Of a DNA stretch of 64,000 nucleotides, positions 25,418 to 40,794 are shown piece by piece (within the stretch, counting starts at the first letter, position 1; each line of letters opens with the position of its first letter). The stretch covers positions 186,001-250,000 of the forward strand of contig NZ_CP023690.1 of NCBI RefSeq assembly GCF_008704795.1, read 5' to 3'. Source of the DNA: Streptomyces spectabilis (GTDB lineage Bacteria; Actinomycetota; Actinomycetes; Streptomycetales; Streptomycetaceae). The notes under the pieces are model-generated. The model saw only the letters and a list, made by a program, of their open reading frames with translations. It was not told the origin of the DNA and ran no database searches. The translations under genes were made by a program, and so were the position numbers.

Positions 25418-26401
25418 TCACTCGGCGGGGAGCCAGCCCTGTTGGACCGCCCGGACGCCCGCTGCGAAGCGGCTCGCCGCGCCGAGGCGTTCCATGAGGT
25501 CGGCCGTGATGCGGCGGGCCGTGCGTGAGGAGACGCCGAGGCGCTTGCCCACGGCCTCGTCGGTGAAGCCGTTCGCCAGGAGCCGCAGCACTTCGGCCTC
25601 CTGCGCGGCGAGGCCACTGGCGTCGGCGCCGGGCCCCGCGGCGAGGGGGCTCGCGGTGGCCCAGACGGCCTCGAAGAGGGCCACTCCGGCGGCCACGAAC
25701 CCTTCGCCCCGGGTCACGATCGCTCCGGCCCGGGCGTCCGACATCCGCACCGGGAGCACAGCCAGGCGGCGGTCGAACACGATCATCCGGATGGGCAGTC
25801 CCGCCGCGGTGCGCACCTCCGCGCCCTGCGCGTGCAGCCAGCCGATGTGGTCCAGCGTGGGCTGGTGCTTCAGGCCGCTCTCCACGTAGACGGTGCGCAC
25901 CCGCACGCCGCGGCCGAGCAGGGCCGCGTTGGGTTCCCTGCTGGCGGCCAGGTCCTCCGCGGAGTGCGCCCCGCCCGGCGCGAAGGTCATGATTTCTTGC
26001 ACGGTCTCGGACGCCAGCGCGGCAAGCCGTTGCTGGATTTCCCTCGCGTCGTGCAGCCGCTCGAATTCAGGGTCGTCCACGGCGGGAATGAGATCGGAGC
26101 ATTCGGCGATCAGCCGCGTCGCCGCCACCCGGGATTCTTCCAGTTTCTGCTGGGCGGCGGCCAGTTCCGCCTTTCGCCGGGCCAGGATCATTCCCATGGC
26201 CACCTGGGGGCTCAGCGCCCTGAAGCCCTCCCCGTCCCCCTGGGTGAGGGCGAGGGCGCTCAGAGTGCACAAGGCCGTCTCCACCTCGGCTTCTTCGGCG
26301 CCGATCAGTGCAGCGAGACCGGCGATCGGCTCTCCCGGATGGGCCACCATGGCCCTGTACAGAGATTCCGCGAGAGGATCCATCCCCAAGGTGTTCAGCA
26401 T
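25418..26401 (-). CDS. LuxR-type regulator with N-terminal TrmB-like HTH
   Basis: This 327-residue protein starts at ATG 26401 (MLNTLGMDPLAESLYRAM) behind GAAAGG. Its N-terminal winged helix resembles TrmB-like regulators, followed by a likely coiled coil (ARRKAELAAAQQKLEESR). The C-terminal LuxR/GerE helix-turn-helix is EAEVLRLLANGFTDEAVGKR with RLGVSSRTARRITADLMERL. Such two-HTH regulators are frequent pathway regulators at the edges of Streptomyces peptide clusters. It is the leftmost gene of the large - strand cluster and the best candidate to act on the shared promoter motif upstream of three of its units. Confidence 0.85.
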   Translation of the reverse strand: MLNTLGMDPLAESLYRAMVAHPGEPIAGLAALIGAEEAEVETALCTLSALALTQGDGEGFRALSPQVAMGMILARRKAELAAAQQKLEESRVAATRLIAECSDLIPAVDDPEFERLHDAREIQQRLAALASETVQEIMTFAPGGAHSAEDLAASREPNAALLGRGVRVRTVYVESGLKHQPTLDHIGWLHAQGAEVRTAAGLPIRMIVFDRRLAVLPVRMSDARAGAIVTRGEGFVAAGVALFEAVWATASPLAAGPGADASGLAAQEAEVLRLLANGFTDEAVGKRLGVSSRTARRITADLMERLGAASRFAAGVRAVQQGWLPAE

Positions 26402-26513
26402 GTCGGGCCTTTCAAGTTCACTGCAGGCGCCCCCGCGCGCTGTTATCGCGCCTCGCCCCGTTTTTGATCTTGTGGGGGACCCAAGCATTGAAGTTGATCA
26501 CCAGACCGGCGTC

Positions 26514-26579: not shown

Positions 26580-26834
26580 CTACCGCGTCACGATCTGGAC
26601 CAAATGATCCCTGAACTGGCGCAGCGTCGGATGGTTCGTGAGCGCCGTGAGCGGGATGCGCTGCCCGAAGTCCCGGCCCAGTTGCAGGATGAGCTGGCTG
26701 GCCGCGATGGAGGTGCCGCCCAGCTCGAAGAAGGTGTAGTCCTCCAGTTCCTCGTCCTGCTGGAGGACGGCCATCCAGCGGGCGGTCACGGTCTGTGCGA
26801 CATCGGGGAGGGCGGGCGAAGGGACAGCGGTCAC
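26580..26834 (-). CDS. Stand-alone peptidyl carrier protein
   Basis: This 84-residue protein starts with GTG and is a complete carrier domain: YTFFELGGTSIAASQLILQL carries the pantetheinylated Ser near residue 42, and IPLTALTNHPTLRQF is helix III. The FFELGGTS motif is of NRPS type. It follows the CxxC flavoprotein and the stand-alone A domain in the same operon, so it is the likely acceptor of the amino acid (predicted Cys) activated by that A domain. Confidence 0.92.
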   Translation of the reverse strand: MTAVPSPALPDVAQTVTARWMAVLQQDEELEDYTFFELGGTSIAASQLILQLGRDFGQRIPLTALTNHPTLRQFRDHLVQIVTR

Positions 26835-26921: not shown

Positions 26922-27830
26922 TCAGCCGAAGGCCAGGTCCTCGGAGATCTTTCGTGCCGCGTTGAGGCCGCTGGCCGCCGCCCCCGTCCACGCGAAGTAC
27001 GGCGAAGAGGGGTTGCTCTTTCCCGTGTTGTAGACGCGGGGGTGCGAGGTCTGGCCGAACAGGGTGGTCCGCGGGAACCCGTGCGGGTTCAACTCAAGTC
27101 CCAGTGCGAGCGGCAAGGTCTGGTTGGGCCGCTGGATCGCGGTGTCGAGGACCACGGCACCCGCGGTGACCTCCTGGCCCGCGTCGGTGACGAGCAACAG
27201 CTCACCGGTCGGCAGCCGGTCGGCGGTGCGCACCGTGCCGACGATCAGTTCCCCGCCGACCGCCGTCAGGCGCTCGGCGAGCGGGTGGCCCGCGGCGGCC
27301 GGGTCGGACACCACGGCGGTGAGCCGGCCCGCGTACTGGCGGCAGAGCAGGGCGTGTTGGAGGGTCTCCTCCCCGGTGCCCACGGCCACGAAGTCGGCAC
27401 CGTCGTGTTCGAGGGTGTGGCAGTAGGGGCAGTCGAAGACCGTTTTGCCCCACTGGCCTTCGGGGAGCCACGGGGGCAGTTCGGTGACGGGGCCGGTGGC
27501 GAGCAGCAGCCGTCCGGCCGTGTGCGACCCGGAGGCCTTGGTGTCGACGGTCACCGACTCCTGCGTGGCACGGGCGGCGACGGCTTCGTCCCAGACGAAC
27601 TCGACGCCGTACGCGGCCGCGTCGGCCTCCATCTTGCGGTACAGCTCCGCGGGCGAGGTGCCGTGCGCGTAGGGGATGTTGTTGACCCGGTCGGCGGGTG
27701 AGTTCCGCCGGTCCTTGCGCGACACGACGAGGACGCGCCGCTTCTGCCGTCCGAGCATGACCGCGGCGGAGAGTCCGGCGGCTCCGGCGCCCGCCACGAG
27801 CACGTCGTACGGGGCGTCCTGATGGGGCAT
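26922..27830 (-). CDS. Thioredoxin-reductase-like FAD disulfide oxidoreductase with CxxC
   Basis: This 302-residue flavoprotein has the FAD motif VAGAGAAGLSAAV (residues 11-23), the redox pair FDCPYCH near residue 134, an NAD(P)-like domain (FVAVGTGEETL) and the C-terminal FAD contact RVYNTGKS. CPYCH-type pairs are found in the HlmI/GliT dithiol oxidases that close disulfides in holomycin and gliotoxin, and also in ordinary reductases. The gene lies between a Cys-type A domain and a PCP, so oxidation of a thiol on the product or intermediate is plausible. GGAGGAA precedes the ATG. Confidence 0.85.
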   Translation of the reverse strand: MPHQDAPYDVLVAGAGAAGLSAAVMLGRQKRRVLVVSRKDRRNSPADRVNNIPYAHGTSPAELYRKMEADAAAYGVEFVWDEAVAARATQESVTVDTKASGSHTAGRLLLATGPVTELPPWLPEGQWGKTVFDCPYCHTLEHDGADFVAVGTGEETLQHALLCRQYAGRLTAVVSDPAAAGHPLAERLTAVGGELIVGTVRTADRLPTGELLLVTDAGQEVTAGAVVLDTAIQRPNQTLPLALGLELNPHGFPRTTLFGQTSHPRVYNTGKSNPSSPYFAWTGAAASGLNAARKISEDLAFG

Positions 27831-27863: not shown

Positions 27864-29561
27864 TCAGGGCTGCGGCGCGGGGGCCCGTTCGAAGAGCCGG
27901 GCGAGCGACTTGCGGTCGACCTTCCCGGTCGGGCCCACGGGCAGCGCCGTCGCCGCGTGGATCTTGCCCGGCAGCATGTACTCAGGCAGTTCGTCGGCGA
28001 GGAGCCGCAGGATGTCCCTGCCGCTCTCGGGCGCGGCCATGCGCAAGGCAAGGGCGAGGGCCGGGTCCCGGGGGTCGCCACAGGTCACCGCGACGGCCTC
28101 GTCCACGCCCGGCAGGCGCCTCGCGGCCTGCTCCACCTCGCCCAGCTCGACGCGGAAGCCGCGCACCTTGACCTGCGAGTCGAGCCGCCCGAGGAACTCC
28201 ACCCAGCCGGCCTCGGTCCACCGGGCCCGGTCGCCGGTGCGGTACATCCGCTCGTCCGCCCCGGCCGCCCACGGGTCGGGCAGGAAGCGGGCCTCGGTCA
28301 GGGCCGGGTCGTTGACGTAGCCCGCGGTGACGCAGTCCCCCGCGATGAACAGCTCGCCCGCCTCGCCCACGTGGCAGGGGGTCAGGTCGGGCCCGAGTAC
28401 GTAGTAGCGGGAGTTCTGCATGGGGTGGCCGTAGGGGATGCTGCTCCAGGCGGGGTCGACGCGGTCCACGACGAAGTCGTTCGACCAGACGCACGCCTCC
28501 GTGGCGCCGCCGAGCGCCACGAGCACGGCGCCGGGGAACTCGCGCTTCAGCGCCGGTGCCGTGTCGAGGGGCACCCAGTCACCGCTCAGGAAGACGCGGC
28601 GCAGCTTGCCGCGGTCGCCCCGGTCGGACTCCGCGGCGAAGAGCAGGACCAGCGTGAACGCGGCCGGAGCGGAGTTCCACAGGGTCACGCCGTGGTCGAG
28701 GAGCGCGTCGCTGACGGCGTACGGGTCGGCGAGTTCGGCGGCGGGGAGCAGGAGCAGGCTGCCGCCGGCGGCGGGCACCCCGAAGACGTCGTACACGGAG
28801 AGGTCGAAACTGAACGCGGCGACCTGGAGGAGCACGTCGTGGGGCCCCACGCCGTTGCGGCGGTTGAACCAGTCGACCAGGTTCACCACGCTGCGGTGGC
28901 GCACCGCGACGCCCTTGGGGTCGCCGGTCGAGCCCGAAGTGAAGATGACGTACGCGAGGTCGTCCGCCGCGGGCGGGGTGAGCGCTGCCGGGCCCCGCGG
29001 GAGGTGGTGGGCGCTCCAGATGCGCTCGCCCTCCTCGCCGTCGGCGGGGCGGGTCAGCCACCGCGCGGACGGGGCCGGGGAGCCGTCGGCCGCGGCGGAC
29101 AGGAGCAGGAGCGAGGTGACGTCCCCGGCCTGCCCGGTGATCTCGTACGCCTCGTCCCGGAGGGAGTCGGACGCGATGAGGTGTCGCACGCCGAGCGAGC
29201 GGACGATCCGCGCGACGCGGGCCGCCGGCCAGCGGGGGTCGAGCGGCACGTAGTGGGCGCCCGCGCGGACCACGGCGTGGAGGGCGAGGACCGTCTCCGG
29301 GAGGTGGTCCATGAGCACCGCGACGGGGGTGCGGGGCTCGACCCCGGTGCCGTGCAGGGCCACGGCCAACTCAACGCTTTCCAGGGCGAGTTGCCCGTGG
29401 GTGAGGGCGGTGCCCGCGGTGGTGCGGACGGCCGGGAGGTCGCGGTGGGCGGCGGCCGCGCGGTCCAGCAGGTCCACCAGGGTCTCGTGGCGCGGATAGC
29501 CGCGGGCGGTGTCGTTCCACTCGGTCACGGCAGGGGGGTGTGGGGGCGGCCAGTTGCTCAT
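27864..29561 (-). CDS. Stand-alone NRPS adenylation domain, cysteine-type pocket
   Basis: This 565-residue A domain carries A3 FTSGSTGDPKG, A5 ATEACVW, A7 YRTGDRARW, A8 GRLDSQVKVRGFRVELGEVE and A10 PTGKVDRKSL. Reading the specificity pocket by eye gives D-L-Y-N-L-S-?-V-W, close to the published Cys code DLYNLSLIW; supporting pieces are FDLSVYDVF, TLWNSAPA and VFLSGDW. The start at 29561 (MSNWPPP) follows AAGGAGG. It has no carrier or condensation domain, so it should load the separate PCP at 26580. It sits downstream of the methyltransferase in the same operon. Confidence 0.9.
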   Translation of the reverse strand: MSNWPPPHPPAVTEWNDTARGYPRHETLVDLLDRAAAAHRDLPAVRTTAGTALTHGQLALESVELAVALHGTGVEPRTPVAVLMDHLPETVLALHAVVRAGAHYVPLDPRWPAARVARIVRSLGVRHLIASDSLRDEAYEITGQAGDVTSLLLLSAAADGSPAPSARWLTRPADGEEGERIWSAHHLPRGPAALTPPAADDLAYVIFTSGSTGDPKGVAVRHRSVVNLVDWFNRRNGVGPHDVLLQVAAFSFDLSVYDVFGVPAAGGSLLLLPAAELADPYAVSDALLDHGVTLWNSAPAAFTLVLLFAAESDRGDRGKLRRVFLSGDWVPLDTAPALKREFPGAVLVALGGATEACVWSNDFVVDRVDPAWSSIPYGHPMQNSRYYVLGPDLTPCHVGEAGELFIAGDCVTAGYVNDPALTEARFLPDPWAAGADERMYRTGDRARWTEAGWVEFLGRLDSQVKVRGFRVELGEVEQAARRLPGVDEAVAVTCGDPRDPALALALRMAAPESGRDILRLLADELPEYMLPGKIHAATALPVGPTGKVDRKSLARLFERAPAPQP

Positions 29562-29597
29562 GGGTCCTCCTTCGCTCCGCTTCCCGGGCACGGCGGG

Positions 29598-30455
29598 TCA
29601 GCGGGCGGGTCGCGAGGCCAGGACGAAGAGGTTGTTGCCGCGTCCCACCGCGTCGGCGGTGCCGAGCAGGCCCCGCTCCAGGGCGAACACCTCGTCGAAG
29701 GCGGCGCGGTCGCCGAGGAGTTCGGCGAGCGACCGGGTCGAACCGCTGATCTGGGTCTCCTGGTAGCCGGGGTAGAGCAGCACGGGGAAGCCGGTGGTGA
29801 GGTCGACCCGCAGGCCCGCGTCCTCGTTCATGGCCCGCAGCTGCTCGGGGGTGAACAGGTGCATGTCCGGCATGGTGTCGGTGAAGCGCCCCCGTCCTTC
29901 GAGGTTGCGCCCGGCCTCGGCGGTCTGCCCGAGGGTGAGGTTGAACCACGCGGCGTGCCAGCGGCTCGGGACGAAGGACACCAGAAGCCCGCCCGGGTTG
30001 AGCAGACCGGCGAGCTGCTTGATGACGTCGGTCGGGGAGTCCACGAAGCCGAGGACGTTGTGGAAGTTGAAGATGAGGTCGAAGCCCTCCCCGGCCAGCT
30101 CCTCGCCCACGCGGCCCAGGTCGCCCTCCCGGCAGGCCAGGCGGTCGGCGTAGCCGTACCGCTCGGCCTTGGCGCGCGCGTGGCCGAACATGGCGGGCGT
30201 GAGGTCGTACAGCACGCCGGTGGCGTCGGGGCGGGCCGTGGCGAAGCGGTGGGACCAGCGTCCGGTGCCGCCGCCCGCGTCGAGGAAGCGGAAGTCCTCG
30301 GGCAGCCGGGGCAGGACGTACTCCGTGAGCGCGGACCACAGCAGCTCGTCGGAGAGCACCCAGTACGGCTGGGCGTCGACGTCGTCGTAGGCGTCGGCCT
30401 TTCCGTTGAAGTACGAGCGGATCTCGTCCAGGGTCGCGACAGGGCCGTCAGTCAT
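29598..30455 (-). CDS. SAM-dependent methyltransferase
   Basis: This 285-residue class I methyltransferase has motif I FLDAGGGTGRWSHRFA near residue 57, the acidic residue in GVLYDLTPAM and motif IV-like GFDLIFNFHNVLGF. The N-terminal IRSYFNGKADAYDDVDAQPY is typical of tailoring methyltransferases. A long C-terminal region with LLYPGYQETQISGS is less typical. It lies between the S66 peptidase and the A domain in one - strand operon. The substrate is unknown; an O-, N- or S-methyl transfer on the peptide product is likely. Confidence 0.85.
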   Translation of the reverse strand: MTDGPVATLDEIRSYFNGKADAYDDVDAQPYWVLSDELLWSALTEYVLPRLPEDFRFLDAGGGTGRWSHRFATARPDATGVLYDLTPAMFGHARAKAERYGYADRLACREGDLGRVGEELAGEGFDLIFNFHNVLGFVDSPTDVIKQLAGLLNPGGLLVSFVPSRWHAAWFNLTLGQTAEAGRNLEGRGRFTDTMPDMHLFTPEQLRAMNEDAGLRVDLTTGFPVLLYPGYQETQISGSTRSLAELLGDRAAFDEVFALERGLLGTADAVGRGNNLFVLASRPAR

Positions 30456-30512: not shown

Positions 30513-31547
30513 TCAGGCTCCGGGGGCCGGTGGGGCGGTGACGGGCGGGCGCAGTAGGAGCCGCGTGCCCGACAGGACGCAGTCGGCTCCCAGGGGCAGG
30601 GTCGCCATCGGGTCGGTGTGCCCGCATTCGATGTTGGCGAGGACCGGGTAGTCGTAGTCGCGGACGGCGCGCAGCACGACCTCGTGCACCCTGCGGTCCT
30701 CCTCCTCGGAGGACAGCCGCAGCCGACCGATGGCCAGTCCGCCGAGCCGCGCGAGCAGGCCCGCGTTGCGCAGCTGGGTCAGGTCGCGGTCGGCGTCGGC
30801 CACGCCGTAGCCGCCGTCCGGCACGTCGAGCACGAGTACGTGTCCCCGGTAGTCGGGCTGCCAGGGGGTGCCCAGGAGCTGGAGCGCGCTGGGCAGGCAT
30901 CCGGCGAGCAGCGGTCCGCCGCCCGTGCCCGGCCGCAGGAGGAGGCGCGGCGGCGCCGGCCGGCGCTCGCGGGGCCGCGTCTCCTCGGCCCCCCAGTCCA
31001 GGTACTCCTCGACCATGTCGCCGGAGGCGGGCACCGGGCCCGCCGGGCCGGCGCCGTCGCCCATCACCACGCGGCGGAAGTGCTCCACCGTGTACGGGTC
31101 GGGGGCGGGGTACTCGCCGAACTGGGGCAGCAGCGCGGGTCCGTAGAAGCTGCTGAGGCCCGCCGCGTACAGCGCGTGGTTGAGGACGGTGATGTCCGAG
31201 TACCCGATCAGTGGTTTCGGGTCCGCCCGCAGGGCGTCGAGGTCGAGCAGCGGCAGCACCTGGGCCGCGTGGTCGCCGCCGATCGCGCAGATCACGCCCC
31301 GGATCGCGGGGTCGGTGAACGCCGCCGTCAGGTCGGCCGCGCGGTCCTCGGCGGTCGCCGAACGCCAGTCCAGGCTTTCGCGTGCGTGCGGCATCACGAC
31401 GGGGACGAGCCCGGTGGCCGTCCGCAGCGCGGTCAGCGCGCGTTCGAAGCGGCGGGGGAAGAGGCCGGCGCCACCCCAGGAGGGGCTCACCACGGCGACG
31501 CGGTCCCCCGGCCGCAGCGGCAAAGGCGTCAGGAGGGGGCCCGTCAC
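30513..31547 (-). CDS. S66-family serine peptidase, MccF-like
   Basis: This 344-residue protein belongs to the LD-carboxypeptidase/MccF family. The nucleophile lies in IGYSDITVLNHAL (Ser117) and the catalytic His in IECGHTDPMATLPLG (His310). A Trp at 185 lies in YLDWGAEE. From memory, E. coli MccF uses Ser118, Glu243 and His311 with Trp186 stacking on the adenine, so all three match within one residue. The expected Glu seems to be Asp241 (LVLDVPDGG). MccF cleaves and detoxifies aminoacyl-adenylate mimics such as processed microcin C, so self-protection is likely. The GTG start overlaps the stop of the upstream synthetase-like gene (GTGA). Confidence 0.85.
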   Translation of the reverse strand: MTGPLLTPLPLRPGDRVAVVSPSWGGAGLFPRRFERALTALRTATGLVPVVMPHARESLDWRSATAEDRAADLTAAFTDPAIRGVICAIGGDHAAQVLPLLDLDALRADPKPLIGYSDITVLNHALYAAGLSSFYGPALLPQFGEYPAPDPYTVEHFRRVVMGDGAGPAGPVPASGDMVEEYLDWGAEETRPRERRPAPPRLLLRPGTGGGPLLAGCLPSALQLLGTPWQPDYRGHVLVLDVPDGGYGVADADRDLTQLRNAGLLARLGGLAIGRLRLSSEEEDRRVHEVVLRAVRDYDYPVLANIECGHTDPMATLPLGADCVLSGTRLLLRPPVTAPPAPGA

Positions 31548-32563
31548 GGTGCGATGGCCACGCCGTTGAGGCGCGGGGCGAGTTGCAGTTCGCGGATGTC
31601 CCAGCGGTTGAGGACCCACAGGAGCCAGCGCTCCACGCCGAGGCCGAAGCCGGCGGTGCGCATGGGGCGGGCGTCCTTCATGTCGACGTACCACTGGTAG
31701 TCGGCCTCCGCGACGCCGTGCTGGGCCAGTGCGGTGCGCACCTGCTCACCTGTGGTGTGCCGTTCGCCGGCGCCGACCACCTCGCCGACGCCGAACAGCA
31801 GGTCGGCGCTGAGCGAGGTGCGCCGGTCGGGGTCGCCGTAGCCCTGGTAGAAGGGCACCGAGAGGTGATCGAAGTGGGTGACCCACAGGACCGGGCTGAC
31901 CTCGGCCATCAGGCGTCGCTCGCCGTGCCGCGTCAACGTGCGCCAGCCGTCGGCCACTTCGACCGCGAGGGGGTCGGGGCCGAGGTGGCGGATCGCCTCG
32001 TCGAGGGTCATGCGGGGGAAGGTGGTGAGATCCGTCATGTGGGCCAGGTGGCCGGTGCCGCCGGCCTGGGCGGCGACCTCGTCGCCGAGTGCGTCCAGGA
32101 CGGCCCGGGCCAGGGTCCTCAGATAGTCCTCGACGACCGCGACGACGTCGTCCAGGCCGCCCTCGATCTCGGCCTCGCTGTGGAAGAACTGGTTGAGGTG
32201 CGTCTCGTCCGCGTCCTCGCCCCGGAAGCTCGGCATGAGGTACCAGGCGCCGCGCGGGTTGAAGCGGCAGCCGTACTCCAGCATGAACTGCATGGAGTCG
32301 GCCAGGTAGGTGTGCTGGCCGAAGAGGTCGACGGCCACCGGCGACGAGTCGCTCCCCAGACCCATCGGGCTGGACACGCTGCCGGTGGTGATGGGCAGGT
32401 GGAGCGCCTTCACCTGCCGCTGGTGCCAGAAGGACGCGGTGCGGACGGTCAGCAGGTCCTGGAGGTCGATGAGGGTGCGGTAGAACGGGTCGTCCATGAT
32501 CTTGATGAATCTGTCCGTCGCGGGACGCCATCCACCGTGCGAGAACTTCTCCATGACGGGCAC
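31544..32563 (-). CDS. Free-standing class II aminoacyl-tRNA-synthetase-like catalytic domain (Asp/Asn type)
   Basis: This 339-residue protein has only the class IIb catalytic core. Motif 2 is MPSFRGEDADETHLNQFFHS and motif 3 is TAGFGLGVERWLLWVL. No OB-fold anticodon-binding domain precedes it, so it probably does not select a tRNA like a normal synthetase. This build is known for asparagine synthetase A and for the archaeal synthetase-related asparagine synthetase. It may form an aminoacyl adenylate and pass it to ammonia, an amine or a carrier. The start GTG 32563 follows AGGAG. It overlaps the MccF-like peptidase gene, so the two are made together. Confidence 0.85.
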   Translation of the reverse strand: MPVMEKFSHGGWRPATDRFIKIMDDPFYRTLIDLQDLLTVRTASFWHQRQVKALHLPITTGSVSSPMGLGSDSSPVAVDLFGQHTYLADSMQFMLEYGCRFNPRGAWYLMPSFRGEDADETHLNQFFHSEAEIEGGLDDVVAVVEDYLRTLARAVLDALGDEVAAQAGGTGHLAHMTDLTTFPRMTLDEAIRHLGPDPLAVEVADGWRTLTRHGERRLMAEVSPVLWVTHFDHLSVPFYQGYGDPDRRTSLSADLLFGVGEVVGAGERHTTGEQVRTALAQHGVAEADYQWYVDMKDARPMRTAGFGLGVERWLLWVLNRWDIRELQLAPRLNGVAIAP

Positions 32564-32951: not shown

Positions 32952-33278
32952 CTAGCCCGGCGGCTCGCCCGATTCCTCGAAGAGCTTCTCGAAATAGGCC
33001 CTCGGCATGGCGACGGCGCACGAGAGCAGGGCGAATCCGCGGAAGGCCGGGTAGCGGGACAGGGCGCGCAGGCAGACGCGTTCGGCGGAACTCTCGGCGA
33101 GTTCCAGGGACGGAGCGAGGAGGAAAATGCCGAAGACGGGCCCACCCCGCACCTCGGGGTGGGCCACGACGAACTCCACGCCGTCCCGGGGCTGGGCACA
33201 CCGGCGCACCAGCGCCGCCGCGTCCGATGGCAGACCGGTGTCCCGGGCCGGCCCCAGGCGGGCGTGGACGAGGTACAT
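32952..33278 (-). CDS. Hypothetical protein, 108 aa
   Basis: This is a compact protein starting MYLVHARLGPARDTGLPSDA. It has a regular pattern of conserved-looking blocks (GVEFVVAHPEVRGGPVFGIF, SLELAESSAERVCLRAL) and no signal peptide or membrane segment. It resembles, from memory, small proteins often found in Streptomyces biosynthetic clusters, but I know no function. It starts 16 bases after the AspRS-like gene and is probably co-transcribed with it, so it may also be under T-box control. Confidence 0.65.
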   Translation of the reverse strand: MYLVHARLGPARDTGLPSDAAALVRRCAQPRDGVEFVVAHPEVRGGPVFGIFLLAPSLELAESSAERVCLRALSRYPAFRGFALLSCAVAMPRAYFEKLFEESGEPPG

Positions 33279-33294: not shown

Positions 33295-34626
33295 TCAGGG
33301 GGTCAGTCGGTGCAGGTCGCGCGGGAAGAGCGTGGTGCGGCGGATGTTGTCCGCGCCGGTCAGGCGGGCGGTCCAGCGTTCGAGGCCGAGGGCGAAGCCA
33401 CCGTGCGGGGGCATGCCGTGGCGGAAGGCGGCCAGATAGCCGGCGTACGGCTCGGGCGACTCGCCGCGCCGCTGAAGGGCGTCGAGGTAGTCCTCGTAAC
33501 GGTGCAGCCGCTGTCCGCCGGTGACGAGTTCGAGGCCGCGGAAGAGCAGGTCGAAGCTGTTCGAGTACTCCTCGCGCCCCGGCTCGGGGTGGGTGTAGAA
33601 GGGCCGCTTGGCCATCGGGTAGCCGGTCACGAACAGGAACTCGCTGCCGTGCTCGCGCAGCGCCCACGCGGACAGGAAGCGTTCGTGCGCGGGCGCGAGG
33701 TCGGGTTCGCCACGCGGGTCCTTGTCGGTGTGCCGCGCGATCAGCTCCTGGGCGTCGGCGAAGTGGATCTCCGGTATGCGCTCCGGCACGCGCGGGACGT
33801 CGACGTCGAGCAGGGCGCACTCCTCGGCGGCGCGCCGCGTGACCGAATCGGCCATCGCGGCGAGGACGTCCCGAAGGACCGCCATGACCTCGCGGTGGTC
33901 GCTGACGAAGCCCAGTTCCACGTCGAGGGATGTGTACTGGGCGAGGTGGCGCGCGGTGTCGTGGGGTTCGGCGCGGAAGACCGGCCCGGTCTCGTAGACC
34001 CGCTCGAACACGCCGACCATGGCCTGCTTGAAGAACTGCGGGGACTGGGCCAGGTAGGCGTCGCTCCCGAACCAGTCGATGGCGAAGACGTTGGCGCCCG
34101 ACTCCGTGGCGGATGCCACCACCTTCGGCGTGTGGATCTCGGTGAAGCCGCGGGTGTCGAGGGCCGAACGGAAGCCCGCGACCGAGGCGGCGGCGATGGC
34201 GTGCGGGGCGCGCAGGCGCGGGTGGCGAAGGGCCACCGGGGCGTGGTCCAGGACGGTCGGCAAGGTGGCGGGCACCGCGGGCCGGTAGAGGTCGAAGGGC
34301 GGGGCCGCGGCGGGCCCCGACAGGGCGGTGACCTCGGGGGAGGTCACTTCGCAGCCGCCGGGTGCCTGCGGGTTCTCGGTCACGGTGCCGCGGACCCGCA
34401 GGACCGTCTCCTCGGTGAGGCCGTCGGCCCCGGCCATGGCGGACGGGTCGGTGAGCACCACCTGGGAGAGTCCGGAGCGGTCCCGCAGGACCAGGAAGAC
34501 CACGGATTTCAGGGCGCGCTTGCGGTGCAGCCAGCCCTCGAGGACCACGTCATGTCCGGCGTGCCGGGAGAGGTCCGCGGCGAGGACACGGCCCGGGACG
34601 GGGCCCGTCGTCTGCTGGGAGATCAT
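33295..34626 (-). CDS. aspS: Aspartyl-tRNA synthetase paralog (archaeal-type, AspS2-like)
   Basis: This 443-residue protein is a full-length class IIb synthetase of the archaeal AspRS type. The N-terminal OB-fold anticodon domain has VVLEGWLHRKRAL. The catalytic core has LAQSPQFFKQAM, motif 2 ETGPVFRAEPHDTARHLAQ and motif 3 GGFALGLERWTARLTG, and it ends FPRDLHRLTP as archaeal enzymes do. The His in GWLHRK resembles non-discriminating AspRS, which charges both tRNA-Asp and tRNA-Asn. The start ATG 34626 lies 6 bases after AGGGG. A T-box leader precedes it. It is probably a second, resistant or tRNA-diverting AspRS inside the cluster. Confidence 0.9.
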   Translation of the reverse strand: MISQQTTGPVPGRVLAADLSRHAGHDVVLEGWLHRKRALKSVVFLVLRDRSGLSQVVLTDPSAMAGADGLTEETVLRVRGTVTENPQAPGGCEVTSPEVTALSGPAAAPPFDLYRPAVPATLPTVLDHAPVALRHPRLRAPHAIAAASVAGFRSALDTRGFTEIHTPKVVASATESGANVFAIDWFGSDAYLAQSPQFFKQAMVGVFERVYETGPVFRAEPHDTARHLAQYTSLDVELGFVSDHREVMAVLRDVLAAMADSVTRRAAEECALLDVDVPRVPERIPEIHFADAQELIARHTDKDPRGEPDLAPAHERFLSAWALREHGSEFLFVTGYPMAKRPFYTHPEPGREEYSNSFDLLFRGLELVTGGQRLHRYEDYLDALQRRGESPEPYAGYLAAFRHGMPPHGGFALGLERWTARLTGADNIRRTTLFPRDLHRLTP

Positions 34627-34629
34627 CAT

Positions 34630-34898
34630 CAACCCCTGGTGAGTGAATGCTGATCCCTTGGGAGTGTGGGCGATAAGGGAACTCGCGGTGCCACCACACT
34701 TTCGCCGACACCAAAAAGGAATCGGCCTCGATGGGCCCGATAACGGGGGCCGTCCGGCGAGGCATTGGGTGGAAACACCTTTTCTCCCCGCGCTCGGGAG
34801 GGTCTTCGCCGCCCGGGGGTGAGTCCGCCTTCTCAGCTGCCGGCGGCTCTCTCGCTCTCACCCTTGTCCGGTGACTACTCGTCTCCGTCATCGCTTTG
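34630..34898 (-). promoter_or_regulatory. T-box riboswitch leader, predicted to sense tRNA-Asp
   Basis: All T-box parts can be folded by hand. Stem I has the AGTA loop (34879-34876), a GGGTGAG/CTCACCC helix, the distal AGAGAGCC and GCTGAGAA loops and a specifier region GCGAAGACC with GAC at 34804-34802. Stem III is GCCGA/TCGGC (34726-34704). The antiterminator is A1 AGTGTGG/CCACACT (34700-34694 with 34669-34663), the 7-base bulge TGGCACC (34693-34687) and A2 GCG/CGC. UGGC would pair with GCCA, the 3' end of a tRNA with G73, as tRNA-Asp has. The competing hairpin TCCCTT/AAGGGA lacks a T run, so control may be translational. Confidence 0.88.
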
Positions 34899-34903
34899 TC
34901 CTC

Positions 34904-34932
34904 ACCCTACACGCGCGTTTCGACGGCCTCAA
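34904..34932 (-). promoter_or_regulatory. Promoter of the T-box/AspRS unit
   Basis: On the - strand TTGAGG (34932-34927) and TAGGGT (34909-34904) are separated by 17 bases, a good vegetative promoter for Streptomyces. Transcription would start near 34898, just before T-box Stem I. It differs from the shared cluster promoters. Confidence 0.7.
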
Positions 34933-36318: not shown

Positions 36319-38418
36319 TCAAGCGCGCAGCCACAGGCCCCTGGTCAGGCAGCGCACCGCGCCGTCGGCGGCGACCACGACCTTGAGCGGATGCTGGTCG
36401 GGCCGCGTCTTCACGGCGTCACTGCGGCCGGTGAACTCGACGACCTTCCGCTCCCCCGCCCGCAGTTCGACCTCCGCGTGGGCGTGGAGCCGGCAGTGCA
36501 CCAGGGGCTCGTTCGAGACGGCGGCCCCCACCGCGACCGTGACGGGCCGGTCGGCGGGCGCCGACAGGGCGACGCCGAGCGCGAAGTCCGTTCCGCGCGG
36601 CACCTCGGACGGCAGCAGCACCTCGATGCCGACGCCGGTCTCCGGGCTGCCCGCGGCGACTTCGCCGCAGCGCGCGCAGATGAGGTAGAGCAGCTCCCCG
36701 GCCGCTCCGGCCGATGGCCGCACCAGGTGGGCGGTCACGGTCCGGCTGCCGCACTGCGGGCAGTCCCGCGGTTCGTCGTCCGCCCGGACCAGCCAGGGGC
36801 GGCGCCAGCCGTCCACGTAGCTGGAGAAGTTCCCGGCGATCCAGTCGGTCTCGGCCCGCACGAGCCGGGACTGGAACGCGGTGAGGTCGCGCACCGCCTG
36901 GTCGAAGGCGTCGAGCGCGGCCAGCGCCTCGGCGGCGCGGGTGGCCGTGGCACGAGCGTGCAGTGCCTGCGCGGCCGTACGGCGGACCTCGTCGAGCGCG
37001 GTGAAATCCCCCTGCACACCGACGTCTTGAAGGCCGCGCAGCCGGTCGAGCCAGGGCGAGACGCGCCGCGCCCACCGGCGGTCGATGTCGGCCCGTACCG
37101 GAAGGACGCGCCCCGCGCCGCGGCCCGCCGCGCCCGTGAGCGCCCAGCTCGACACCCCGTCGAGGCGGGCCAGGGTCACCGGTCCCGCGGCGTCGTCAGC
37201 GAGGACCGGCCCGCCCTCGACCAGGACGGCCGCGGGCCCGGCCGCCAGGTACGCGCCGCCCGGTCCCGGCGGGCAGGCCACCGTGGCGAGCGTGCCGTCC
37301 GGGACGGGGGCGAGGCCCGCGTCGCCGAAGAGCACAAGGCGGCCCATCGCGTCCGGTTCGGCCTCGATGACGCCGTTGACCTCGGCCAGTGCCCGCCCGA
37401 GCGGCAGGCCGCCGCGCATCAGGCCCTGGAAGAGCTGGCCCGCGTGCCCCGCGCCCTTGCGGATGCCGGTGCCGGTGGCGACGGCGACCGCGGTGCCTTC
37501 GAGCATGGACAGCGGCACGGACACGTCGGCCATGACCGGGCCCTCCCCCGCGACGGCCAGACGGCAACCGTCCAGGACGGCGAACGCGGCCCGCACCTCG
37601 GCCGCGCGCACGTGCTGCTCGACCTCCACGTCGGCGCGCCAGCAGCCCGCACCCTGCTGGCAGGACGTCGGGTGCCCGCGGAAGGCGTCGGCGGCCGACA
37701 GCGGCAGGGGCATCTGCGGGTCGGGCTCCGCGCGCCCGCAGATCCCGCCGCCGTTGAGGTGCATCACGCAGTCCCGCGCGTGGCTGCGGCCCGCCAGCAT
37801 CGCCACGCCCGGGCCGATCGCCTCCCGCAGCGTGACCGGGGTCGCGGCCACGCCCACGAGCCGCCGGGGCGTGGGCGCGTCGACGGTCACCGCGTCGAAG
37901 GACAGGTCGTCCCAGTCGGCCGCGGCGGCCGGGCCGTGCAGGACGGTGCGCACGGCGAGGGCGGAGGCCGCGGCGGCGCTCCGGGTCACGAAGAGCCCGA
38001 GTCGCGCGTCGTGCGGGAGCGAGGCGAACTGCTCGGGGGTGACGGCCGCGACCCCCGCCACCAGGGTCGCCGGCTCCCGGAGGCTGTGCGCGAGCGCGGC
38101 CTCGAAGCCGCCGCGCAGCAGCGGGCGCCCGGTGACCTCCGCGAGGAGTTCGCCGACCGCCGCGTACGCCGCGTCCTCGGCACCGGACGCGTCGTCCTGG
38201 ACGAACACGGCGCCGTGCCAAGGCTTCCGGGAGACCTCGGACACCGTCGGCAGGGTGGCCAGCGTGGTCCGCAGCCGCTCCCAGTGCCCGGCGATGACGG
38301 GCAGCGCGGCGCCCGGCCGCCCGGCCTCGCGGGCGTAGCGGAGGTAGGTCTCCAGGTCGTCGACCGGGACGAGCGTGCGGCCCGCGACGCGGGGTGCCTC
38401 CTGGGCCTGGGCTTGCAT
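36319..38418 (-). CDS. Protein of unknown function, 699 aa, with zinc ribbon and possible caspase-like core
   Basis: I do not recognise this protein. Residues about 150-170 read LGLFVTRSAAAASAL, then a central region has CVMHLNGGGICG, PTSCQQGAGCWR, FAVLDGCRLAVAGEGPV and FQGLMRGGLPLGRALAEV. This order of a His-Gly-rich loop followed by a strand ending in a Cys resembles clan CD (CHAT/gingipain-like) peptidases, but weakly. Near residue 570 two CxxC pairs (CPQCG and CARCG) form a zinc ribbon, followed by a beta-rich tail. It lies between two synthetase-like/transport genes in one operon. The ATG at 38418 fits the spacing. Confidence 0.75.
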   Translation of the reverse strand: MQAQAQEAPRVAGRTLVPVDDLETYLRYAREAGRPGAALPVIAGHWERLRTTLATLPTVSEVSRKPWHGAVFVQDDASGAEDAAYAAVGELLAEVTGRPLLRGGFEAALAHSLREPATLVAGVAAVTPEQFASLPHDARLGLFVTRSAAAASALAVRTVLHGPAAAADWDDLSFDAVTVDAPTPRRLVGVAATPVTLREAIGPGVAMLAGRSHARDCVMHLNGGGICGRAEPDPQMPLPLSAADAFRGHPTSCQQGAGCWRADVEVEQHVRAAEVRAAFAVLDGCRLAVAGEGPVMADVSVPLSMLEGTAVAVATGTGIRKGAGHAGQLFQGLMRGGLPLGRALAEVNGVIEAEPDAMGRLVLFGDAGLAPVPDGTLATVACPPGPGGAYLAAGPAAVLVEGGPVLADDAAGPVTLARLDGVSSWALTGAAGRGAGRVLPVRADIDRRWARRVSPWLDRLRGLQDVGVQGDFTALDEVRRTAAQALHARATATRAAEALAALDAFDQAVRDLTAFQSRLVRAETDWIAGNFSSYVDGWRRPWLVRADDEPRDCPQCGSRTVTAHLVRPSAGAAGELLYLICARCGEVAAGSPETGVGIEVLLPSEVPRGTDFALGVALSAPADRPVTVAVGAAVSNEPLVHCRLHAHAEVELRAGERKVVEFTGRSDAVKTRPDQHPLKVVVAADGAVRCLTRGLWLRA

Positions 38419-38471: not shown

Positions 38472-39683
38472 CTACGGTTCGAGGTGGTCGATGAACCGGG
38501 GGAACGGGACCAGCTGGCGCGTGTTGCCCAGGCCCAGGCACTTGGCCATGAGCCGGTCGATGCCCATGCCGAAGCCGGTGAGGGGCGGCAGTCCGCTCCT
38601 GAGGACGTGGACGTAGTAGGCGAAGTGCTCCGGGTCGAGGTTCTGCTCCACCATCCGCTCCAGCAGGCGCCGCGGGGAGGTGACCCGCTCGCCGCCGTCG
38701 ATGATGTCGACCTCGTCCCAGTAGAGCCGGAAGTCGTTGGCCACTTCGGCTCCGGCGAGCGGCTCGTGGCGGGTGGAGGAGAAGAACGCCTTGTGGCGGG
38801 CGGGCATGTCGACGACCCAGAACAGGGTGCGGCCCAGGTACCGGGAGACGGACCGCGCGTGGTACCGCTTGATCCGGTGCCCCGGCCGCAGGTCCTGGCA
38901 GTCTTCGTCCTTCTCCGTGATGGCGAGCACGTCCTGGTAGGTGACGACGGGGATGTCGTCCAGGTCGCCCTCGGGCAGCGGCGCGCCGGTGTGCTCGCAG
39001 ACCCGGCGGACGATCCGGTTCGACAGGCCGATCATGTCGTCCCTTCCCCGGTGGGCCGCGGTCACCTCCAGGATGAGGAACTCGCTCAGGTGCTGGGAGC
39101 TGTGGTTGATGTCGGCGCGGAAGAGCGGGGAGATCTCGAAGACCGACGTGAAGTCGCCCGCCACGAAGGCGGTGTGGTACAGCAGGTTGCTCAGCGTCAG
39201 GTAGGCCTCGCGGCCGAAGAAGTCCACCTTGAACTTCAAGGTCGGGCCGTCCGCCATGCTGCCGACGATCCGGGGCGACTGGACCTCGACGTACCGCTCC
39301 TCCTCCATCAGGTCGCGGACGGACTTGATCGCCGTCCACTTCTTCAGGAGCCGGTCGCGAACCTCCGGCAGTCGCATGTGGACGTGCTGTTCGGCGAGGA
39401 TGTCCCTGCTGTACGGGAGGTGCCGCATCCGGGCCGAGGTGCCGACCGTGTTCGCCGCGAGCACGTCGAAGCCGTCGACGTGGATCTCCTCGGCGAACTT
39501 GCGTGACCTCTCGGCCGGCCGGAGCGTGCCGGTGACGCGGACGACGCTCTCCTCCGTGACGTCGGGGCGGCCGGGGAACACACAGAGGTACGTCCGGTCC
39601 GGGCAGCGCAGTTCGGCGAAGGCCAGCCGCTTGCCCAGGGGTCTGATCGCGAAGAGCCGGCCGGTGAGGCTGGTCGGGGACAT
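38472..39683 (-). CDS. Divergent class IIb aminoacyl-tRNA-synthetase-like protein (Asp/Asn/Lys type)
   Basis: This 403-residue protein has an N-terminal OB-fold-like domain (LTGRLFAIRPLGKRLAFAEL, VVRVTGTLRP). The class II core has motif 2 FEISPLFRADINHSSQHLSE and motif 3 LTGFGMGIDRLMAKCLGLGN, and it ends FPRFIDHLEP. It is clearly related to AsnRS/AspRS but differs from the AspS2-like neighbour in many pocket positions. A new amino acid or tRNA-independent use is therefore possible. GAGGAG precedes the ATG. It lies 11 bases after the RlmN-like gene. Confidence 0.87.
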   Translation of the reverse strand: MSPTSLTGRLFAIRPLGKRLAFAELRCPDRTYLCVFPGRPDVTEESVVRVTGTLRPAERSRKFAEEIHVDGFDVLAANTVGTSARMRHLPYSRDILAEQHVHMRLPEVRDRLLKKWTAIKSVRDLMEEERYVEVQSPRIVGSMADGPTLKFKVDFFGREAYLTLSNLLYHTAFVAGDFTSVFEISPLFRADINHSSQHLSEFLILEVTAAHRGRDDMIGLSNRIVRRVCEHTGAPLPEGDLDDIPVVTYQDVLAITEKDEDCQDLRPGHRIKRYHARSVSRYLGRTLFWVVDMPARHKAFFSSTRHEPLAGAEVANDFRLYWDEVDIIDGGERVTSPRRLLERMVEQNLDPEHFAYYVHVLRSGLPPLTGFGMGIDRLMAKCLGLGNTRQLVPFPRFIDHLEP

Positions 39684-39694
39684 GGAGGGGCTCC

Positions 39695-40672
39695 TCAGAC
39701 GAGGGGAAGCATGGCCTTGTGGGAGCGGGCGACGCGGTGTTCCTTGGCCGCCTCGGTGAGCATCTGGCCGCAGCCGCCGTCGATGTCCTGGGCCTTGCTG
39801 GGCATGATGTAGGTGGGCAGGCCGCCGGCGAGCAGGCGCTCGCGGAAGCGCAGGATGACGTCCTCCTCGACGCGGCTGAACGGCAGGCCGGGGACCTCGT
39901 TCCACAGCAGCAGCTGGACGCGGAAGTAGCGCGGGTCCAGGAGTTCGACGAGCCGGTCGGCGTCCGCGTCGCTGTCGTTGACGCCGTTGAACAGCAGGTA
40001 GCTGACATCGGTGACGCGGCCGTGGGTGCGGGCGAAGTTCTCCGCCGAGCGCAAGATGTCCGTGATGGGGTTGGCCTTGTTCAGCGGGACGAGGCGGTCG
40101 CGCACCTCGTCCGTCGTGGCGTGCAGGGACAGGAACAGGTCGACGGACGGTGCCTCTTCGGCCAGCCGGTCGAGGGCGGGCAGGACGCCCATGGTCGACA
40201 CCGAGATGTGCGCGACGCCGGGCTCCGTCTCCAGCAGGGACACCGCGCGCAGCACTTCGTCGAGGTTGAGCAGCGGCTCGCCCATGCCCGCGAAGATGAC
40301 CCGTGACGGTACGTCCCGCTCCTCCAGGAGCCGGGTCTGGCGCACCTGGTCCACGATCTCCTCGGCCGTCAGGTTCCGCCGCATCGGCATGAGCCCTGTG
40401 GCGCAGAAGGTGCAGGCCACGTTGCAGCCGGCCTGGCTCGACACGCAGACGACGTGGCCCCGTGACTCCTGCACCGGGGTGGCCACGCGGCCGTCGGGGG
40501 TGGCGTGCGAATCCGCGTCGCCCAGCGTGAAGGAGAGGCTCTCCACCTGGTTGCCGTCGGGGAGGCGCCACACCGTCTTGATGCTGCCGTCGCCGCTGGT
40601 CGCCCGGCGGGCGGGCACGACCAGGGGGGTCCCGGAGCCGGGGTCGGCCTGCGGGGACAGGGTGGTCTGCAT
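39695..40672 (-). CDS. RlmN/Cfr-like radical SAM RNA methyltransferase
   Basis: This 325-residue protein has CVSSQAGCNVACTFCATG, which includes the radical SAM CX3CX2C (Cys83, 87, 90) and the upstream Cys76. The C-terminal KAQDIDGGCGQM carries the methyl-carrying Cys. FAGMGEPLLNLDEVL is also typical. The protein is shorter than E. coli RlmN (384) and lacks the usual N-terminal RNA-binding domain. RlmN methylates A2503 of 23S rRNA and A37 of some tRNAs, including tRNA-Asp; Cfr gives ribosome-drug resistance. In this cluster it may modify a tRNA or protect the ribosome. The ATG at 40672 follows GGAAGGAAAG. Confidence 0.9.
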   Translation of the reverse strand: MQTTLSPQADPGSGTPLVVPARRATSGDGSIKTVWRLPDGNQVESLSFTLGDADSHATPDGRVATPVQESRGHVVCVSSQAGCNVACTFCATGLMPMRRNLTAEEIVDQVRQTRLLEERDVPSRVIFAGMGEPLLNLDEVLRAVSLLETEPGVAHISVSTMGVLPALDRLAEEAPSVDLFLSLHATTDEVRDRLVPLNKANPITDILRSAENFARTHGRVTDVSYLLFNGVNDSDADADRLVELLDPRYFRVQLLLWNEVPGLPFSRVEEDVILRFRERLLAGGLPTYIMPSKAQDIDGGCGQMLTEAAKEHRVARSHKAMLPLV

Positions 40673-40794
40673 GGTGGTGCTTTCCTTCCGTTGGTGTGCG
40701 CGCCGCTTCACCGGCACGGGTGTCCGGGGGCACGGCGGGGAGAGAGCCGGAGGGGCGTTTCGCCGAGCGGGCCGCTGCCCGGGCTCCGCCTTCC

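Follow-up and report, generated by a model that had tools for sequence, protein, structure and literature searches.

T-boxes of actinobacteria have been described as ileS elements of the translational class (PMC1262725), and a PNAS paper of 2015 on actinobacterial ileS T-boxes is cited in PMC7778990. One such element lies in the genome from which our window was taken (the window is the 64,000-nucleotide stretch of Streptomyces spectabilis DNA analysed here). It is the only other T-box of that genome in a whole-genome Rfam search (L002; 46.3 bits, before an IleRS-like gene) and, like the leader described below, it has no terminator and stays under the Rfam cut-off. The window leader differs from the ileS elements in reading tRNA-Asp, in its longer Stem I and in preceding a second synthetase. 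It is a single Asp case located in a biosynthetic cluster, and it has no clear hairpin that would sequester the Shine-Dalgarno sequence.

In Firmicutes, an aspS T-box is named for C. acetobutylicum in PMC2494555, and a second-synthetase T-box at tyrZ is the subject of a title cited in PMC9437257. These systems share with our locus that a T-box governs one of two synthetases; they differ in being of the transcriptional type, in belonging to another phylum and in standing outside any biosynthetic cluster. Another Firmicutes second synthetase under a T-box is thrZ. The indolmycin-induced TrpRS of S. coelicolor resembles the case proposed here in that an inhibitor of a synthetase induces a second copy of the enzyme, and differs in its control, which works by attenuation and, to our knowledge, not through a T-box. 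Induction of this second TrpRS by indolmycin is stated in a title cited in PMC9437257.

The agrocin 84 locus of pAgK84 resembles the present one in its AgnA-type synthetase, methyltransferase, resistant synthetase (there the LeuRS agnB2; in our locus resistance is predicted) and MccF-like protein, and differs in having LeuRS in place of AspRS. PMC5059758 and PMC4392301 describe AgnB2 as resistant to the toxin and AgnA as an AsnRS homolog without anticodon-binding domain. Our leader model R1 (see below) detected no T-box in the pAgK84 agrocin 84 locus. We know of no AgnA-like gene in the microcin C system, which also differs from the window's cluster in its peptide route. Microcin C and MccF immunity (PMC7916415) share with our locus an MccF-like peptidase and AspRS as the target, which for our locus is a predicted one. 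In the literature we found no Asp T-box in Streptomyces and none in a self-resistance cluster; TBDB, for which Actinobacteria were scanned (PMC7778990), may list such leaders.

A T-box leader upstream of a second AspRS gene

Positions 34932-34624 of the window, read on the minus strand, begin with a promoter-like pair, which is followed by a complete T-box leader and then by the start of an AspRS gene. The features are:

34904..34932, minus strand: promoter-like pair, TTGAGG (34932-34927), 17-base spacer, TAGGGT (34909-34904)
34640..34902, minus strand: T-box leader RNA (Rfam RF00230 match; 255.9 bits with model R1, which was built from 41 leaders including this one)
34802..34804, minus strand: specifier GAC (Asp)
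34663..34700, minus strand: antiterminator/antisequestrator hairpin, A1 34700-34694 with 34669-34663, A2 34686-34683 with 34673-34670
34687..34693, minus strand: T-box bulge TGGCACC
33295..34632, minus strand: second AspRS gene, archaeal type (non-discriminating type), predicted self-resistance synthetase

The original prediction, made from this DNA alone, had named a T-box with Stem I, a GAC specifier, Stem III and an antiterminator, ending just before an AspRS-like gene, and all these parts are present on the minus strand. The predicted antiterminator was correct in its 7-bp A1 (AGTGTGG/CCACACT) and its TGGCACC bulge; A2 was given as three pairs and has four (GCGA/TCGC). A match to the Rfam T-box family, proposed at the same time as a check, was obtained over the full length of RF00230 (34900..34663, minus strand; model 1-219 of 219) with 73.8 bits and an E-value of 3.4e-16 in 501 bases, or 1.6e-15 across the whole 9.8-Mb genome. 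The score lies below the Rfam gathering score of 93, and an Rfam scan of the window at the default cut-off therefore listed no T-box. That cut-off is a threshold for listing and not a measure of anatomy; of the 392 genomes searched in the genus, 390 gave a match to the T-box model with an E-value of 0.001 or lower, while none of the 392 reached 93 bits.

The gene behind the leader encodes a second AspRS that scores 544 bits with NF003483 (cut-off 353) and 360.4 bits with TIGR00458, just under the cut-off of 368.4. Its best solved relative is 1n9w, aspartyl-tRNA synthetase 2, and it retains both the tRNA-binding OB domain and the catalytic domain. The ordinary AspRS of the genome is encoded elsewhere (C1:5084207, 612 bits).

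The genome encodes a tRNA-Asp with anticodon GTC (GUC in the RNA) and discriminator base G73 before the CCA end, so that the GAC specifier and the UGGC of the bulge, whose C would pair with G73, both fit this tRNA. An open-codon context search yielded 97 leaders, 78 of them distinct, in which the specifier tracked the gene: GAC preceded AspRS genes in 70 and TCC preceded SerRS genes in eight, in agreement with the predicted specificity for tRNA-Asp. The expectation that related leaders keep GAC together with a fitting bulge held for the codon before AspRS and less strictly for the bulge, whose variable base among the 78 leaders was mostly C (56), less often T (19) and in three cases A; the UGGA of these three is a misfit to G73. 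With the pattern open to any codon, ten of 394 genomes of the class matched, eight with GAC (window included) and two with TCC, and the reversed pattern matched none. AspRS stood behind all eight GAC sites and SerRS behind both TCC sites, one of these being assigned from 32 matching residues at the border of its locus.

The fold of the single sequence was unremarkable (z -0.79; 41 of 200 shuffles folded as well); the case for a T-box is a comparative one. We aligned 41 of 45 non-redundant leaders, omitting L022, L026, the GAC leader of L043 and L084, and reset the start of the L054 leader by hand. Across the 54 named pairs, 97.5% of cells were paired and 26 pairs changed on both sides; covarying stems in related leaders were among the checks proposed with the original prediction. 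Double changes were found in 143 cells, and none of 500 shuffles was as high on any measure. Pairing fell to 41-48% of cells when the partners were slid. Our structure was derived from the window leader and known T-box anatomy, which biases this comparison towards it, and the sequences compared are related. A1 and A2 were paired in 100% of cells, with changes on both sides in three of the seven A1 pairs and one of the four A2 pairs. Sequence comparison confirms that the T-box leader is real and reads tRNA-Asp.

Promoter and expression platform

The promoter with a 17-base spacer that the original prediction had placed before the leader is present as a sequence, though a generic sigma-70 scan found no promoter at the window leader. 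TAnnnT occurred in the same place in 75 of the 78 leaders, and TTG and TAnnnT stood 15-20 bases apart in 49. Two features near the gene start bear on the mode of control:

34655..34679, minus strand: alternative pairing of CCCTT (34679-34675, A2 loop) with AAGGG (34659-34655), of putative role
34633..34637, minus strand: likely Shine-Dalgarno sequence AGGGG of AspRS

A terminator scan of the window leader found none, which makes translational control the more likely reading, and we predict that control is probably translational rather than transcriptional. Transcription attenuation by an unusual terminator would be an improbable mode. CCCUU and AAGGG could form its hairpin, each pair being kept in at least 40 of the 41 leaders (99.5% of cells can pair, and in L042 both sides have changed in a compensatory way, the one such case), and actinobacterial terminators may be without U-tracts. 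However, this hairpin has five pairs, a 15-base loop and no U-tract, and it was not picked up by the terminator scan.

The off-state might involve one of two mutually exclusive pairings, that of CCCUU in the A2 loop with AAGGG just downstream or that of AGGGAUCA with the region around the AspRS start codon. Sequestration of the Shine-Dalgarno sequence was not convincing, as its modelled accessibility in the window was 0.79 and 0.79 in the two states, that is, unchanged; the means of 75 of the 78 leaders (three were dropped) were 0.54 versus 0.43. In GAC leaders the pairing of AGGGATCA with the start-codon region had a mean score of 15.4 versus 9.6 in control windows; the leader set scored had been reduced by one without a clear start, the TCC leader of L045. 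As an off-state it was likewise not convincing, since 33 of 500 partner swaps equalled the score and several leaders, from Kutzneria and Amycolatopsis, do not form the pairing. On structural reasoning alone, the 3-base linker appears too short for a pseudoknot in which the A2 loop pairs with AAGGG and A1 stays formed.

An agrocin 84-like gene neighbourhood

The leader had been predicted to belong to a biosynthetic cluster, and the genes nearby, including an AgnA-like synthetase, an MccF-like S66 peptidase, a methyltransferase, an adenylation domain and a carrier protein, agree with that placement. Identities in the list refer to the sister cluster described in the next section:

25418..26488, minus strand: LuxR-type regulator (Pfam GerE; 69% in the sister cluster)
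26580-26834, minus strand: carrier protein (Pfam)
26922-27830, minus strand: thioredoxin-reductase-like oxidoreductase (Pfam)
27864..29591, minus strand: stand-alone amino-acid adenylation domain (TIGR01733, 400 bits)
29598..30455, minus strand: SAM methyltransferase (Pfam)
30513..31547, minus strand: S66 peptidase, MccF-like (start codon assumed; MccF-named PDB chains, E down to 2e-40)
31544..32563, minus strand: AgnA-like synthetase, AsnRS/AsnA catalytic core without anticodon-binding domain
32952..33278, minus strand: 108-aa protein, starting 16 bases downstream of the AspRS stop codon
34981..36270, minus strand: MFS transporter, upstream of the T-box (Pfam; 71% in the sister cluster)
38472..39656, minus strand: RS2, a third class-II synthetase-like protein, with OB domain (NF003483 194.5 bits, cut-off 353; 79% identity to its sister-cluster counterpart)

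Farther upstream, a gene at 36319-38391 (minus strand) encodes a 690-aa protein with CxxC pairs near its C-terminus and no NCBIfam match; this gene and RS2 were called from frame-wise GC3. Another gene (39695-40717, minus strand) encodes an RlmN/Cfr-like radical SAM protein (TIGR00048, 218 bits, under the cut-off of 290), and a similar one (26-30%) stands beside AspRS in some other T-box loci.

The 108-aa protein has no Pfam or NCBIfam match; its gene, 388 bases from the AgnA-like (AsnRS-core) gene, adjoins AgnA-like genes also in L124 and L180. The AgnA-like protein is 41.5% identical over 97% of its length to the pAgK84 agnA product, 'Agrocin84-synthetase' (E 1e-72). NCBIfam models for asparagine synthetase A match it below their cut-offs, and relatives of the protein are also annotated as asparagine synthetase A, so the enzyme may catalyse a different reaction. 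In the S66 protein the expected Ser and His are conserved and an Asp replaces the Glu of MccF; these are catalytic positions in MccF. By gene content the window resembles an agrocin 84-like cluster: it has an AgnA-like synthetase, an S66 protein of MccF type with a methyltransferase nearby, and a tRNA synthetase of its own (AspRS).

At E≤1e-30, a search of 392 genomes of the genus found AgnA-like genes in 20, one of which is the genome of the window. Among 28 AgnA-like loci besides the window, 18 held an S66 peptidase, 18 a methyltransferase and eight a LeuRS-, AlaRS- or ProRS-like gene, counted over the stretch fetched and with few query types for synthetases. Three of these synthetases were compared with family models: two exceeded the LeuRS cut-off and one, ProRS-like, fell below its cut-off. 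A Xenorhabdus locus combines LeuRS, S66 peptidase and methyltransferase, and a Peribacillus locus has two AlaRS-type genes. The locus of Streptomyces NBC_01707 carries a ProRS-like gene, S66 peptidase and methyltransferase together with molybdopterin and FAD oxidase genes; as phosmidosine contains proline and 8-oxoadenine, this locus looks like a phosmidosine-type cluster. An Rfam T-box search of six other AgnA loci found none. Because a LeuRS, AlaRS or ProRS-like gene accompanies AgnA in several loci of this type, we predict that the window's cluster makes an AspRS-directed nucleotide antibiotic.

We also observed two AgnA-type loci with a ProRS-like gene (L098 and L127, the former with molybdopterin/FAD oxidase genes as well) that are possibly phosmidosine-type clusters. 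Two others (L131 and L181) have a full LeuRS, over the family cut-off, and an S66 peptidase; these may direct the synthesis of agrocin-like LeuRS inhibitors in actinobacteria.

Possible role of the leader and fate of the T-box-AspRS unit

We propose, with a probability of roughly three in four, that the T-box raises the second AspRS when the likely AspRS-inhibiting product of the cluster blocks the ordinary AspRS. Uncharged tRNA-Asp would then accumulate, and, as in studied T-boxes, Stem I would bind its anticodon and the bulge its free CCA end. Since the terminator scan was negative, the outcome in the tRNA-bound leader would presumably be increased translation of AspRS, and this second AspRS is expected to resist the inhibitor. 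The product itself may be an aspartyl-adenylate mimic; the AgnA-like enzyme would make it and the MccF-like peptidase would detoxify it. Judged from genes and alignments, an alarm for an AspRS-directed product appears to be the best-supported reading of the leader; it gains support from the AgnA-type synthetase and MccF-like peptidase beside AspRS and from a related cluster in which AspRS was lost and the T-box decayed.

This sister cluster (L124/L182, genome G335) is syntenic with that of the window from LuxR to NRPS and 59-84% identical over the compared region. Between the MFS and 108-aa genes it has no AspRS gene, only a short 5' AspRS stub behind a decayed T-box (L124 11842-12098, minus strand), and no second AspRS was found elsewhere in the genome. 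The relic scored 49 bits in the R1 search, compared with 215-275 bits for 27 intact leaders including the window's, and an Rfam search found no T-box at the locus at E≤0.05. It keeps 31 of 49 model pairs, and both A1 and A2 are broken. Decay of the leader where AspRS was lost and the rest of the cluster was kept indicates that upkeep of the T-box is tied to AspRS. The sister cluster thus provides an example of a non-working leader, and the window leader could in principle be such a passenger too; we consider this very improbable, since the latter forms all 49 model pairs and has an intact specifier GAC, bulge and promoter.

The second AspRS might also supply Asp-tRNA or Asp-adenylate to biosynthesis, with the T-box meeting demand. 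The presence of three synthetase-like genes in the cluster would suit this role, which we nevertheless regard as quite unlikely: the AspRS has both the tRNA-binding OB and the catalytic domain, and in the sister cluster AspRS was lost and the T-box decayed while the biosynthetic genes remain, which speaks against a need of these genes for the T-box. Persistence of the sister cluster without AspRS also means that AspRS may be dispensable, or that RS2 or the S66 peptidase may protect.

The T-box-AspRS unit is not confined to such clusters. The 31 loci of the Rfam searches of this genome and the genus had the T-box before AspRS in 24, SerRS in five and ileS in two cases. An AspRS protein scan gave 45 loci, of which the 43 actinobacterial ones are 65-83% identical; AAGAC in specifier context was present in all 43 and absent in the other two (an archaeon and a spirochaete). 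Ordinary AspRS enzymes of this T-box group in the genus are only about 39% identical to the window's second AspRS, which means that two distant AspRS lines and SerRS share a single type of leader. In many other actinobacteria the T-box-AspRS unit stands alone, without AgnA, S66 or methyltransferase genes. The T-box by itself therefore implies no drug, and the unit was not made for this cluster.

A SerRS/TCC T-box and an AspRS/GAC T-box occur inside one 20-kb stretch in L041, L043, L045, L046, L047 and L049 (also L039). In paired loci of the L041-L049 type, from genomes of the genus Streptomyces, AspRS is mostly adjoined by cupin-like and radical-SAM genes.

Plain homeostasis, in which the T-box matches a spare AspRS to a general shortage of charged tRNA-Asp and the location in the cluster is incidental, would account for the solitary units and for the sibling unit that serves SerRS. 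We consider it rather unlikely, because the unit occupies one spot between the MFS and 108-aa genes in two related clusters (the window and the sister relic) and because AspRS is of the kind of gene carried by AgnA-type clusters. We favour the reading of the leader as an alarm for poisoning of the ordinary AspRS. A wider proposal, which we put forward tentatively and with somewhat less than even confidence, is that the producer measures its own poisoning: the T-box would read the failure of the target and turn on a resistant AspRS copy inside the cluster for an AspRS-directed, agrocin- or phosmidosine-like nucleotide antibiotic, and neighbouring organisms would hold the corresponding resistance genes in the T-box-AspRS and T-box-SerRS units found across actinobacteria.

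Our findings add Asp and Ser leaders to the ileS T-boxes of actinobacteria, and the sister cluster represents a natural loss experiment. If the proposed role is true, self-resistance would be set by the state of the target and not by the drug or a regulator, a simple logic that would suit any synthetase inhibitor. It would also provide a search rule, in that a T-box and a spare synthetase in a cluster would name the target of the drug.
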